Part shown: positions 5,284 through 25,806 of the stretch, piece by piece
Layout: each line of letters begins with the position of its first letter
Position numbering within the stretch: position 1 is the first letter of the stretch
NCBI GenBank assembly: GCA_949751835.1
Contig: CATKHK010000018.1
Location: forward strand, 248,001-312,000
Reading direction: 5' to 3'
Length of the DNA stretch: 64,000 bases
Source: Blepharisma japonicum
Taxonomy: Eukaryota > Ciliophora > Heterotrichea > Heterotrichida > Blepharismidae
The notes under the pieces: generated by a model
Database searches by the model: none
Seen by the model: only the letters and a program-made list of their open reading frames with translations
What the model was told of the DNA's origin: nothing
Translations under genes and position numbers: made by a program

Positions 5284-8200
5284 TTAATTCGCAGGCTTTA
5301 TGAAGTATGACTGATGAACTCTATCAATTGCTTTTGCTGCTACCTCTTTATTAAATGTGTATTCATATTCGCCATTATAATTCTTTTCCAATAATTCTCT
5401 AGTCTTGTCACTAACATTGATTTCCCCAGGCTTCCCATTGCTTTCCATCTTATTTGCTATCAGCACATCTGGTCCATAAATATCATACCTCACAATATTG
5501 GTGCCAATAATTCCAGCAATAACAGTTCCAGTATGAAGACCAATTCTCATATTTAGCTCAGATCCATGAAGCAAATTCACAGCATTAATAATTTCAATCA
5601 TATTCTGGGCCATTTTCAGCATATTTAAGCACTCTTTCCCAATATCTCTATTAGCGCTTCCATTATACCCCATAACCACATAGCAATCTCCTATTGTGTG
5701 CACTTTATAAACACTAAGTTCTACACATTTTTTATCAAATTGAGTAAATAGCTCGCTCAGCATTTTTACTATTTGTTTAGGCCTTTTATTTGAACTTCAG
5801 GCGGTAAATCCTACAATGTCTGCAAATAGTAAAGTAACGTCTTGTAGCTTATCAGTAATGGATTTGTCTTGCTTCATGTTTTCTAAGACATGAGGCGGCA
5901 TCATTTGTACTAATAACTTGTCAGTCTCTTGAATTTCTCTCTCTGCTAAATGCTGCAAATTGAAATTTATTCTTACCCTTTGTTCTCGTGAATAAACTGC
6001 GGAAGTGTTTATAATTGCAAATCCAAACACCAGTAAAATATTGGCTAAATCTGACCCATTTAAGGCTGCTGCAATAACCCATGGTGTAAATATCCCGATA
6101 CTCACTAAAATAATGGCAGAAAGCGGCATGTCTGATGCGTGGTTGAGTATAATAATGATGTACATAATCTCAAGGGCTATAAGGTCATCACTAAATTTTT
6201 TGTCATCAAAAATAGAATAAAGAACTGTAATTAGCATCAAAAGAAGCACTGGAATGGTAAAAAGCGGGTAGAACCTCATCTTGTTCATTAATCTGTGGAT
6301 AATAATAAGCCCTATTAATGCTCCCACAATCACTATCCTCATTATGCTAATATTTGCGTCAGAGTATCCCGATAGAAGTCATGCTTCTAATATAGAAACC
6401 GCTAAAAGCATGCCATACGCAATCACAGCTGTAGATAATCCTAATAATACAGTCACATAGTTTCTCAATGTATGCTCCAGTCTGAATTTCTTCTGGTTTT
6501 CTGTTTCTCTGATTGAAAAATCACAAATTTTGGCCGGCTTGATTATTCCTGGATCATTTTTTTTAAATGCAGCTTTTTTGTCAGAAATATCGAAACGGGT
6601 TATACTGCGGCTGATAGTAATTGCATCGTCATCTTCATCATCAAATTGAGGATCAAAATTTTGAACTATAGGAGGGTTATTCATCATTGTGTTCATTGGC
6701 AAAATTATATCCTCCATCGATCCTTCAACAGACTCAGAGACAATAAATGTTTTCATTAGTCCTTTGCCTTTTGCTTCCACTTCTTTTTGTTCAAATTTCA
6801 AGCCATTATGATTTTCAAGCAGCTTATAAGTATCCTTTGAAATTTGTATAGCATTTGTCTGCTCTAATGTTGAGCACATTCTGCTCGCTGTATTAACAGT
6901 ATCTCCGACTAAAGAAAACTGAGGCTTGTGATATCCGACAACCCCAGAAGTTACTGGTCCAGAATTTATCCCAATTTTTACTTGTAATGTGGAGCCATAC
7001 TTTAATTTGATTGATTGGATTTCTCTGATAATTGCAAGACTCATTTCTATGCATCTTCTGGCATGAGTTACTTCTTTTAGATGCTTACTCATTTCAAGCT
7101 CACTGTCTTTTAGCCCTGCGCAAGCCATATAAGTTTTACCTACTGTCTCGATTTTAGTTACACCGATGGTGTCACACATTTGGTCGAATTTCTGGAAAAT
7201 TTGATCTAAAAAGGTTGTAAGTTCGTTTGGACTGTATTCTTTGCAGATTCTATCAAAATCGTAGATATCACAAAAGAGGACTGTGACCGTGCCTTGATCT
7301 TCAGCGATGTATCGGGCACCTTTTTTTACTCGGTTTCTTACGAAGAAAGGTAGCAAATAGCTTAATATTGTTTGGATTTTCTCTACAGCGTTTTCTGTTA
7401 TATTCATCAGTTTATGCTCTTCTCTTTTGGATTTGTCAAGAAAATAGCCAATGAATGCGGAGGTTACTGAAATAGCTACTATGATAATCATTGATTTTAT
7501 TATCAATAAAATAACTTCAGTATTACTATAGCTTGAATCGCCTTCATAATAAATCAAAAGTGCCATTAGGAATAGCCCAATATTAATAATATTCAATATT
7601 GTAATGATCAAATAGTCCACATTAAACAGAATATAAGAAATTGCTGGCACCATTGATGTAGATAAAAGCCCTGTTTTCTCATAATTGGCATCACTAACTG
7701 CCATCGCAATTATAAAAAGAAATATAATGGCAAGTGTGCAAAACACATAATGCCGCTTAAAATAGTCAAGCATTACTAGCAGCAGCACAGCTGAAAAGGC
7801 CAATACCATGACTATTCTTATTACGGTATAAGATAACGACGGACTCTGCACAACTACTTCATAAATTGTCCAAAATAATAATATAATCCATATTAGTCCA
7901 CAAATCAATCGATACATTAATATATGATCATTGATATAGTGGTCTCGATATAGGTTTTCTATATAAGGAGAAACAAATTTGAGCATTCAATTCATGTCAA
8001 ATTTATTTTTTTCATTATTGGATTTTCATATTGATGAATCTCGGTATGCAGAGAGTAATCCATCTGAATAGTTTCCTAGCCTGCTAAATTCAATCTCTTC
8101 AGCCTTCTCTGGGGCAACGATAATTAATTCTCTCATACTTGGTTTGAATAATGTAAAATAAGCTTTATAGAAGTATCCTGGAACGATTGCTAACAATGGT

Positions 8201-11200
8201 GTTACAAGAAAAGCAATAAGGGACACTGAAAATTTAGAAATTTCCGTGCCAATTCCAATTTGCTCCCAATTAGGGAACTTATATTCATTTGATATGCATA
8301 TATAGCCAACAAGGAGAGCCAAGGAAAGAATATGAGAAATACAGTATAGTATGTTGAAAGAAAATGTGTCAATTATTATTTGATATAGAGCAACAAAAAC
8401 AGTTGATATAAACATTGTGGTTCCAAACAGATTTTGATCTTCACTAAATCCATCATTATTTATAGATCCATCAAATACTTCACTTACAAGAAGAAGAATG
8501 ATGGCAGCCTGGATTATTGACAAAGTTGAGTAATAAATTAATTTTTTCCAGCTGAAAAGCTTATTTACGATCCCTTGCACATAAATTTGAGGATGCTCAA
8601 AAATTTTAGATCTCTCTATATCAAGATCGAAAACTCCAAGCATAAATAACGGAAACGTTGTATATAATAAATTATAGCCTACCAATAAGCCTGAGTTATA
8701 TATAGTGGCTCCTGAGTAATCACTCATAAAAATATACCCAAAAGTTATAGCAGTCAAAATAAAATTTTTGTAAAAAAATAAAAGAATTATCCTGGACATT
8801 CTTGAGTAGTTTCTATGGCCATATAGGAGGAGAAGGTCTTTCAATACAGAAAAATGCTCAATAGAGACTTCACAGAAGTTAGAAGCATGGTTATGAGTTT
8901 TTCCTTTAATTCCTATACCAATGTCAGCTTCTTGAATCATTGAAATGTTACTATTCCCTGCTCCAACAGCTAATACAACCGGCTTAAATGTTAAATTTTC
9001 TTTTAGAAGCTTAACTAAATTGTTTTTGTCTTTTGGCAATAAATCATGAAAACATACACATTTTGCAGCCAGCAAGACACATACTATTAGCTTTCTTGAA
9101 TCTTGGTCACTTAAAGCTAGTTCAAATGATTTTCTATCTAAAGACACTGAAAAATTAACGGTTTCAGGGAAAAAATGCTTGGAAAGATAATCATCTGCAA
9201 CAAGGGTTGAGCCTATTTTTAGCAATGATTGATAAGCTAAAGTAGCATTGCCTGCGTTGCTAATTTCTTCTAAAATAATAGAAGCTTCTTCTAAGTATTC
9301 ACTAACAATGCTATCTGTTTCAGGGTTATCTTCATTGTCATTTAATGCTTTTTCTTTAGGAGCGCTATTAAATCTTGCTAATTGCTGAGGAGCAGCAAAA
9401 GTTGGTAATTTACTTCTTGCTATTTCATGATAAATATGAGTTGCTATTACCCGTTGCAACATTTTGGTTATCCCATATACAGAGCTCGCTCCTTTAATAT
9501 GCACAAGTGATGTATGAGAATTTAAAAGCCTTGCTCCATACGCAGACTGAATAGTATTATCTTCAGAATCCCCACTTGTCAGCCATAGCTTTATTCCAGC
9601 TTTTTGAAGGGCCTCTACACATTCAATAGTTTCAGGCAAAACCGTATCTTTGATGCCTACAATACCAAGAAAATCTGCATTTTTTTCGAATTCAGAATAA
9701 ATGTTTTCGTATTTGTAATTAATATTTAAAGGTGAACATCTTGCAATTTCTATTTTTTGAAGAAAATCTTTCAGTTCTCCATTAGAAAGTGCCTTGCGAG
9801 CTAGAAACACTGGCTTCATTCCTTCATTAATAATTTTCTTTGCGTCAAATAGAAGGTTAAGCCTAAGCTCTTCATTTTTTAGCAAAGGTATTATAGTTTC
9901 ATATGTCCCTTTTATATACATGATAGCAGGCTCATTTTCTTCTGTTTTAACGATGACCCTTGCTTTTTTCGAATTGCTATTGCTAGGTTTCGATCCAAGA
10001 ATTATATAAGATTGCTTATTGCCATTTATCTCAATTTCACAAGAATTCATAGCATTTGATAGGATTTTTATCCCTAAATCCGAACTAAAAGCATTTAATG
10101 CTTTATCATCTGGTGAAAGACCTGAGATCTTGTTTGGGAAAGCTGAGGTAGATACAGCCAAGCATTTTAAAAACTCTGTTTTTTGCTCACTAGATTTATC
10201 TCTGAGTTCTTCAGAAAGTTTTTCAAAGGATTTTGCATCATCTTTAGGGCCTTCACTACCAAAGCGTTCAGTATAATTAATACTAAAAGCAGAAGGCTTA
10301 ATAAACAATGTTTTTTCTTCATCAGAAGACAACATATGTTCAGCATTTTCAACCCTTCTATATATTTCTGAGTCAACCATGCATAGTTGAACTATAAATT
10401 CGCTTTCAGTCAAGGCTCCACTTTTGTTTAATAAAACATACTCAACTTGCCCAAGGTCTTCATTAATATCTCCAGTTTTAAAGTTTATCCTTTGTCTAGA
10501 ATTTATTTGAATGTAAATTACTTGAAGAATTCTTATGATATCCATGGTCACAAAAAGGGATATTGGGATGATATTATTAAAAAGCAAAGTAAAAGTCACA
10601 AACATTTCAGGAAGAGAATAAGTTGAGTATGAGTAAGAGTCTGAACTTTCTGATATGAAATAATATGCGCAAATTGAAAAAACGACAAGACCAAATAGTA
10701 TTAGCAAAATGATCCCAACCCATCTATTTATTCTTCTTTCTAAAGAGCTTGTCTTCTTAGTAGGCTTTCTTGTGTTCATCAATGTTTTGGTGTCATGCCC
10801 AGTATATACAATTAATCCAATTGCCCAGGATGTCCCATTTAGCTTACCGCCCCTAAAAAGCGCTTGCTCTGCATGAATATCAAAAGCTTTGGGAAAGCCG
10901 TTTAATTTTATCTTACCTCTAAATTTGGAAAAATCGCTATTTGGCTCTACTATCCTCACCTTGGCTTTCAATTTTTTTAAAATTGAATCATCTTCTATAG
11001 AGTTTAAAAATTGTTGGATTTCAGGAATTTTTTTTATTTCTTTGAAAATTGCGTTTCCAATAATACCTGAAGTGTCTAAGTATACTTGCTCTTTTTCCTT
11101 TTCGGATGCTAATAAAACCATATCTGCTGGGACAATATCTCCATCATTTAGCAAGACAATATTCCCAACTAATAAATCTTTTGACTGAACTTTTACAAAT

Positions 11201-11556
11201 TTTTCCCCGTTTCAACAACTGTAAAGAATTGTGTTTATTTTTTTATCATCCTTCCACCTATACAAGTCATTATAAGCATCCTTTATAAGGGTAAAAAATA
11301 AGAGTATTGCCAATGGTGCAATTGTGCTCCAAGAGTCTGTAGGGTTTAAATTGATAGGAATCAATTGGAAAACCGATACAAGTAGAAATCATATGTTTGA
11401 AGAACGCTGGAATTGCTCGAAAAGATTCAATGGGATGATTGTAAGTAGTGTATACCTTGTAGATTTGGCACAATTATTTGGAAATATTGAATTTTCAACG
11501 CTGGCGTTTCCATCAACTTTAAACTCACGCCAATTCGTTTCTGCATAAGATGCCAT
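5284..11556 (-). CDS. P4-ATPase-like/guanylate cyclase fusion
   Basis: One 2090-codon frame joins a flippase-like half to two nucleotide-cyclase domains, the architecture known for guanylate cyclases of ciliates and apicomplexans. Residues 1-1180 follow a P4-ATPase, including the N-terminal FPNN...[11 protein letters not shown] motif. About six membrane segments follow, then C1 (about 1420-1590), six more segments (about 1725-1880) and C2 (about 1905-2075). Six TGA codons give Trp56, 115, 1177, 1190, 1726 and 1920. The last lies in GFTAW of C2. The pump looks dead: the phosphorylated Asp is Asn377 (NKSG for DKTG), DGET is lost near 160-169, and GDGAND is GAGNSN at 865-870. The cyclase half looks active. 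C1 supplies Glu1470, Ser1548, Asn1555 and Arg1559; C2 supplies metal ligands Asp1913 and Asp1957. The product would make cGMP at a membrane. Confidence 0.93.
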
Positions 11557-24858: not shown

Positions 24859-25806
24859 TTATAATAGCTTCTTCAATTCCGTCTCAAGATCAACAGATTT
24901 TTTCGAATAAGCAATCCAACTAAATGCCATAATCCAGCACAAGCTTAAAATTGCTATCACAATCAGTGACCATCCTAAAACCAAATTTTTCCCTCCAATG
25001 CCCGTTGTAGTGCTAAAAATAACCCACTTCTCTCCATCAAAATCGCTATAGTCTTCAATATTTGCAATATTAAGTTTCATATTTTTCCCATCCATATCCA
25101 TATCAATTTTCCCATAAAGTTTCCTCACAGTTGAAGTAGCTGAAGTCCTCATCCAAACTTTTAAATGTGGGTCTTCAAAATCTCTATATTGCTTTTGCTT
25201 ATAATCATCAGAATTTTTGTATTTTGAATCATCATCAGTAAACCAATGAATGTCATCATCTTCAATTGTGATATTGTTACGATTTTCATCAAGGAAATAA
25301 AATTTGTCTTGGAATAAACTGAAGGCAATAAGACCGCAAGGGTTGACGATTTCATGATCTTTGAATGTTGACCCATCAAGCTTAGTTATATTAATGCGCA
25401 ATTTATCAGGATAATCATCTGCACGGAGGTAAGGAGAGCAATATTGGCAAGAAGTAGAGTCATAAGACTTATCTGCAAGTTGGTTTTGGCAATATGACTT
25501 GACGTATTTTCGATGATTTTGGAAATAGTTTTTTAGCTCAAAATAAAGATAGACAGGCTTTGATAACTTATCAGTGAAATGTAAATCGATGGTGCAATTT
25601 CACTTGCCCTCACATTGATCGTCATAACGAACTTTATAATCGACGATTTGATATGAGTAAGATAAGAGGATTGCTCCAAGTATGAGGGATATCACAAAGA
25701 CAACAGCAAATATGCATATTGCACAAAGGGCTGTAGGAATGCACATGATATACCGAAATTCTAGCTGCCTCCAACCTCCTTTAGGCTTTCTTGACTGTTC
25801 TTGCAT
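24859..25806 (-). CDS. CDC50: CDC50/LEM3-family P4-ATPase subunit
   Basis: The 315-residue protein has two membrane helices, at about 25-50 and 280-305, around a large extracytosolic Cys-rich loop, as in CDC50 proteins. The block YFELKNYFQNHRKYVKS is diagnostic, followed by paired cysteines (CQYC) and NPCGLIAFS. TGA at 25600-25602 is Trp69, followed directly by NCT. CDC50 proteins chaperone P4-ATPases and are needed for flippase activity. In apicomplexans a CDC50 also partners the P4-ATPase/guanylate cyclase fusion, and a fusion of that kind lies 13 kb away in this window. The pairing here is inference. Confidence 0.92.

Follow-up and report, generated by a model that had tools for sequence, protein, structure and literature searches.

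A Blepharisma fusion of a guanylate cyclase with a P4-ATPase-like half that has very probably lost its ATP-driven cycle

The stretch of Blepharisma japonicum DNA analysed here (contig CATKHK010000018.1, 64,000 nucleotides, referred to as the window) carries a gene (5284..11556, minus strand) whose product, a single chain of 2090 amino acids, joins a P4-ATPase-like half to two cyclase domains. A preliminary description, made from the letters alone, had proposed that the pump half has lost all catalytic motifs and is retained as a pseudo-flippase, a regulator or receptor domain for cGMP synthesis. The locus thus raises the question of whether this half can still pump and, if it cannot, what it is kept for.

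We analysed the genome (45.2 Mb, 224 contigs) with TGA read as tryptophan. When only TAA and TAG were counted as stops, 17 of the 23 stop-to-stop frames of at least 300 codons in the window contained in-frame TGA (50 in total), and many P4 and cyclase profile matches across the genome also read through TGA. Read in this way, the fusion is indeed one long open frame as described earlier, but its low end does not lie at 8026: positions 8026-8028 are an in-frame TGA (W1177), and the frame continues to 5284. Four Pfam stretches scored over their cut-offs, namely PF16209 (PhoLip_ATPase_N), PF16212 (PhoLip_ATPase_C) and two stretches of PF00211 (Guanylate_cyc). Scores below the cut-off were obtained with the generic models for E1-E2_ATPase, hydrolase and cation-ATPase, as would be expected if the catalytic part is worn. 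The gene and the domains of its pump half are as follows, the domain boundaries (e.g. actuator 116-275) being our own choice.

5284..11556, minus strand: whole fusion gene, 2090 codons in a single open frame when TGA is read as tryptophan (six TGA codons), with a TAA stop
11320..11493, minus strand: PhoLip_ATPase_N, the P4-ATPase N-terminal domain, residues 22-79 (54.5 bits, cut-off 29)
10732..11211, minus strand: actuator-like domain, residues 116-275, from alignment and fold (PF00122 sub-threshold, 24.3 vs 28.1 bits)
8137..8871, minus strand: PhoLip_ATPase_C, the P4-ATPase C-terminal membrane domain, residues 896-1140 (Pfam)

We then read the motifs of the pump half; the roles given to the motif residues are those generally known for P-type ATPases.

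11050..11064, minus strand: DGET position, residues 165-169, reading IIGNA, with Asp166 and Glu168 lost (alignment)
10555..10566, minus strand: PISL of TM4, residues 331-334, intact (motif reading)
10417..10428, minus strand: NKSG in place of DKTG at the phosphorylation site, residues 377-380, starting at window position 10428
9901..9912, minus strand: KGTY in place of the nucleotide-binding KGAD, residues 549-552 (motif reading)
9568..9576, minus strand: TGD changed to SGD, residues 661-663 (Ser661 is present in 29 of 29 members of the clade described below)
9025..9039, minus strand: P..QK site reading LPKDK, residues 840-844, Lys844 kept (motif reading)
8947..8964, minus strand: GDGAND changed to GAGNSN, residues 865-870 (Asp866 to Ala, Asn869 to Ser, Asp870 to Asn)

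In the alignment to human ATP8A1 and ATP8B1, N377 stood opposite the Asp of DKTG, and Ala866 and Asn870 stood opposite the acids of GDGAND. The residue numbers first given for Asn377 in place of the phosphorylated Asp, for SGD at 661-663 and for GAGNSN at 865-870 were exact, and the DGET loop, said to be replaced near 160-169, was found as IIGNA. The cited substitutions are therefore real; the statement that all catalytic motifs are lost was too strong, since 10 of 16 engine residues are kept and six lost (by our own list, in which Ser was accepted for Thr at 379 and 661). The residues retained include K378, G380, K549-G550, G662-D663 and K844, together with PISL, while three of the four P-domain acids are gone. 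Of the features of an active flippase, the P4 fold and PISL are present, and the phosphorylation Asp, the GDGxND acids and the DGET Glu are absent. The Asp866 position is, as we take it from SERCA, a Mg2+ ligand. It is very probable that the P-type cycle can no longer be run by the pump half, which lacks its nucleophile, the dephosphorylation Glu and two more acids of the P domain. An Asp to Asn change at the phosphorylation site is reported to ablate yeast Drs2p (PMC7858053, in excerpt), and excerpts of PMC6592433 state part of the roles of the pump motif residues.

A profile search of the organism's own genome gave at least 59 PhoLip_ATPase_C places and at least 87 Guanylate_cyc places, 78 of the latter at 126 bits or above. 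These matches were paired by position, by eye, into at least 39 fusions with two cyclase domains each, and the remaining 20 P4 places were stand-alone genes. We read the pump part in 39 of 39 fusions and in 15 of the 20 stand-alone P4-ATPases (the other five lie at C50:105024, C13, C73, C33:233600 and C3). One stand-alone gene on the reverse strand, L021, has a 15-nt GT-AG intron that contains an in-frame stop; introns of 15 nt are reported for Blepharisma, as is the use of TGA for tryptophan (PMC9942806, in excerpt). Fusion genes in tandem, at a spacing of ~6.4-7.0 kb, were seen on contigs C29, C40, C86, C106, C43, C8 and C70 of this genome (G000), indicating that the family grew partly by tandem duplication.

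Judged by the flippase motifs, eight fusions were fully intact, two nearly so (L037 and L040) and 29 departed from the canonical state. The 29 lay on one side of a branch with SH-aLRT 100 in the tree of the whole part read, and the same 29/10 split had 100/100 in a tree of residues 15-365 from which the motif columns had been removed. The ten others grouped less surely (90 for the whole part read, 84/51 for residues 15-365). The trees carry no tested root, and by the clade of 29 we mean this side of the branch. All 29 members were without Asp166 and Thr661, and 17 retained Glu168. Because the whole clade has Ser661 and lacks the DGET Asp, neither feature says much on the window gene alone, and we rejected both as signs of pump death. 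We also rejected the idea that the whole clade is dead, as all four P-domain acids are present in 21 of the 29, and in L029 the engine residues are complete (16 of 16).

The substitutions that are rare in the family are more telling of the window gene, namely N377, A866 and N870. When the motifs were compared across these 39 ciliate fusions, Asn377 occurred only in the window gene; Asp377 was kept in the 38 others and in 15 of 15 stand-alone P4-ATPases, which exceeds what chance would give. The window gene has AAC at this codon, while both its sisters, L034 and L030 (the three are called the trio here), have GAT. Asp866 was kept in 34 of 39 fusions and Asp870 in 37 of 39, L034 sharing the Asn with the window gene. 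Within the trio, position 866 is Ser in L030, Glu in L034 and Ala in the window gene, Asp870 is lost in L034 and the window gene, and Asp377 is lost in the window gene alone (the order of the motif losses was taken from the tree by eye). L034 has Asp377, but Lys replaces its Gly380. Outside the trio, Glu stands for Asp663 in L038, L056 and L058, and for Asp866 in L044 and L052. PISL is exact in 12 of the 29 clade members, the trio included; L045, L046, L047, L049, L050, L051 and others keep the phosphorylation Asp and have PISL rewritten (PLPL, PPSL, PTSL, PTEL).

To see where constraint has fallen, each trio pair was set against comparison pairs inside set identity bands; the three trio pairs have a common history, which makes them non-independent, and the counts of pairs as low are descriptive. 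Elsewhere in the fusion family, segment 366-400, which holds the phosphorylation site, is conserved as well as or better than the rest of the chain. In the trio pairs its identity was 49-57%, against 80-94% expected from the rest of the chain, and none of the 138 within-group comparison pairs was as low as any of them. The N domain was likewise low (34-44% vs 52-65% expected; 0, 0 and 2 of 138 as low). Other bands, mixed groups, the clade only and removal of the motif all agreed, the sole exception being a wider segment, for which 1 of 143 pairs was as low as one trio pair. Identity in the P2 segment was reduced for two of the three trio pairs (1, 14 and 0 of 138 comparison pairs reached as low a value). 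No outlier was seen for the P3 segment that holds GAGNSN (3, 66 and 13 of 105 as low), the actuator domain (19, 87 and 64 of 168) or TM1-2 (150, 107 and 136 of 152).

Residues invariant in the canonical genes (a reference set of 23 genes, with L037 and L040 left out) were scored at 19 positions in TM1-4 and 71 in the P segments. Of the 19 TM1-4 residues, 16 are kept in each trio member. In the rest of the clade (26 members) the count is 17 in two, 16 in one and at most 14 in 23. In the trio, the phosphorylation-site segment has lost its usual constraint, and TM1-4 and PISL have kept theirs.

We further estimated the selection on each half against L034. The pump half (1130 codons) had 64% protein identity, with 161 of 250 four-fold sites differing, pS 0.73 and pN 0.23; the cyclase half (950 codons) had 70% identity, with 143 of 219 four-fold sites differing and pN 0.19. 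The cyclase catalytic domains stood at 84% and 91% identity. Purifying selection acts on both halves of the window gene and is strongest on the cyclase domains. For the pump half, on which the preliminary description had left selection to be measured, this is seen in near-saturated silent change beside 64% protein identity; such saturation makes dN/dS rough, and only its direction is safe.

The model of the pump half showed a P4-ATPase fold (pLDDT 84.5, pTM 0.84) with low-confidence inserts near 406-435 and 721-783. Its best Foldseek match was Dnf1-Lem3 (TM 0.82), and Drs2p-Cdc50p scored 0.81. We also considered whether the shape is locked in E2P, as the best E2P match (TM 0.82) exceeded those to E1 (0.50-0.71). 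The canonical control L022 behaved alike (0.86 vs 0.53-0.74), so this is a preference of the modelling and no evidence for a lock. The genome gave 11 CDC50 matches, two of which are pieces of one gene by position, i.e. ~10 genes. One of these is in the window, and a further one lies on the same contig beyond it (C18:230365).

24859..25806, minus strand: CDC50 gene of 315 aa, P4-ATPase beta-subunit family, ~13 kb from the fusion

The cyclase half has the following two domains.

6736..7302, minus strand: first cyclase domain, C2-like, with Glu1470 (KIETVG), Asn1555 and Arg1559 kept and the second metal Asp replaced (GKTYM)
5299..5850, minus strand: second cyclase domain, C1-like, with metal Asp1913 (ADIVGF) and Asp1957 (GDCY) both kept

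The pair is inverted, with the base residues, among them the Glu that selects guanine, and the transition-state residues (NTASRM) in the first domain and the metal Asp pair in the second, an arrangement described for Toxoplasma GC (PMC6592433, in excerpt). As these residues are kept, one working composite guanine-type site, and with it cGMP synthesis, is predicted. We read the cyclase residues in 8 of the 39 fusions, and the transition-state pair was lost in L018 alone. L018 (G000:C1:414639-424638) is a mirror image of the window gene, having 16 of 16 engine residues in its pump half and an altered cyclase. In its first domain NTASRM has become TKIASGM, with Asn and Arg lost, and in its second IANKME has become IAFTTE; its weaker cyclase match is the lowest-scoring of the 78.

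Together, the loss of the nucleophile and acids, the open frame, the purifying selection, the predicted P4 fold and the intact cyclase residues agree with the earlier view of a retained pseudo-flippase, and the pump half is not decaying. Since the residues for pumping are lost and the pump half is nevertheless kept by selection, it is probably a sensor or scaffold and not a pump. On balance, and with moderate confidence, we favour a fusion of a class III guanylate cyclase with a P4-ATPase-like half whose ATP engine is dead; this half would act as an inert scaffold and probably as a lipid-responsive regulator. The regulatory role is suggested by the kept lipid-path residues and by the apicomplexan relatives. 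In such a protein, the pump half would be held in a non-cycling state and would pair with a CDC50 protein for folding and membrane placement (we draw no link to the CDC50 gene of the window). The TM linker may relay lipid or membrane occupancy of the intact TM1-4 groove to the cyclase pair, and cGMP synthesis would thereby be freed from ATP-driven flipping. Against a dead engine stand the engine residues that remain, K378, D663 and K844 among them, and the unexceptional constraint on P3; the kept actuator domain could also mean a residual conformational cycle. Weighing against the lipid-responsive role are the smaller number of canonical residues scored in TM1-4 (19, vs 71 in the P segments) and the need for an active pump that is reported for PfGCalpha and Toxoplasma GC.

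The alternative that survives best is a purely structural pump half, required for folding with CDC50, for ER exit and for positioning the cyclase within a membrane domain, with no lipid sensing. The kept fold and membrane part fit this, as does Plasmodium GCbeta, which is degenerated in P. falciparum (PMC6592433, in excerpt), stabilised by CDC50 and polarised in the ookinete (PMC7858053, in excerpt). However, a pure scaffold would have no need of lipid-path residues, and the trio keeps those of TM1-4, PISL included, better than 23 of the 26 other clade members, which counts against this alternative; we regard it as possible but rather unlikely. The membrane path retained beside a dead engine could instead serve transport of its own, as a passive scramblase-like path or a lipid-gated switch with the cyclase secondary. 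With 84% and 91% identity to the sister L034, however, the cyclase domains are better conserved than any other stretch of the protein (the pump half stands at 64%), which points to cGMP synthesis as the main output, and we find this explanation improbable. Still more improbable is a pump active by unusual residues, with Asn377 modified or another acid used. Lys378, Asp663, Lys844 and Lys549-Gly550 are there for it, but Asp866, Asp870 and Glu168 are lost too, the constraint on 366-400 has fallen, and the Asn change ablates Drs2p (PMC7858053, in excerpt). A decaying pseudogene or a sequencing or assembly error at the motifs is rejected as the least probable of all: AAC at codon 377 is one base from GAC, but the frame is open over 2090 codons, as are 38 of 38 other fusions in the part read, selection is purifying, and Asp866 and Asp870 are likewise missing from L034, which lies on another contig, and Asp866 from L030.

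Returning to the favoured explanation, the 39-member family may, more tentatively, amount to a pump-cyclase receptor dissected by nature, in which the trio would be ATP-independent lipid-gated cyclases and others would be altered in the PISL groove or in the cyclase (L018). If true, ligand binding, pumping and cGMP synthesis would be separable modules, and pump catalysis would not be inherently required by the cyclase, contrary to the indications from PfGCalpha and Toxoplasma GC.

Among the literature matches listed (open-licence papers), no title named a pump-cyclase fusion family in Blepharisma, and the main text of the Blepharisma genome paper (PMC9942806) has no word starting with cyclase. 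On cGMP in heterotrich behaviour, nothing on these fusions stood in the excerpts of PMC8208649 and PMC8582858 or among the matches listed. Many Paramecium cyclase sequences are mentioned, without pump motifs, in an excerpt of PMC9608856. Tetrahymena PAC1 and PAC2 have the same architecture as the window gene; one survey gives T. thermophila 2 fusion copies (PMC3143110, in excerpt), against at least 39 in the Blepharisma genome, 29 of them in the divergent clade. With the flippases ATP8A1, ATP8B1, Drs2p and Dnf1, the window gene shares the fold, PISL and TM1-2 residues, but unlike them it has no catalytic Asp, GDGAND acids or dephosphorylation Glu.

The closest comparison is Plasmodium GCbeta, a P4-ATPase-like/guanylyl cyclase fusion with the same domain order and a degenerated ATPase domain. 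In P. falciparum this domain is called degenerated and most pump signature residues are reported as unidentifiable (PMC6592433, in excerpt), and in P. berghei the cGMP of ookinete gliding depends on GCbeta, which a CDC50 protein stabilises (PMC7858053, in excerpt). A degenerated pump half in such a fusion is thus already known, and the window gene, which fits this side with its dead engine and kept scaffold, is not the first of its kind. It differs in being one of at least 39 paralogues that run from canonical to eroded on one tree (the GCbeta residues are taken from the description). Plasmodium GCalpha and Toxoplasma GC (TgATPaseP-GC) are the same fusion, with the inverted cyclase pair in Toxoplasma GC (PMC6592433, in excerpt), and PfGCalpha has PISI at the position of PISL (PMC7858053, in excerpt). 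Both keep the phosphorylation Asp (PMC6592433, in excerpt), where the window gene has a natural Asn. Three transfections with PfGCalpha Asp756Asn gave no viable parasites (PMC7858053, in excerpt), and for Toxoplasma GC the ATPase activity is listed as indispensable to survival (PMC6532924, in excerpt), which indicates that the coupling there depends on an active pump. The window gene naturally carries the Asp to Asn change tried as a knock-out in PfGCalpha, with its cyclase kept, and the same ciliate also has canonical sisters of it; it can therefore be tested here whether cGMP synthesis needs pumping or only an occupied pump shape.
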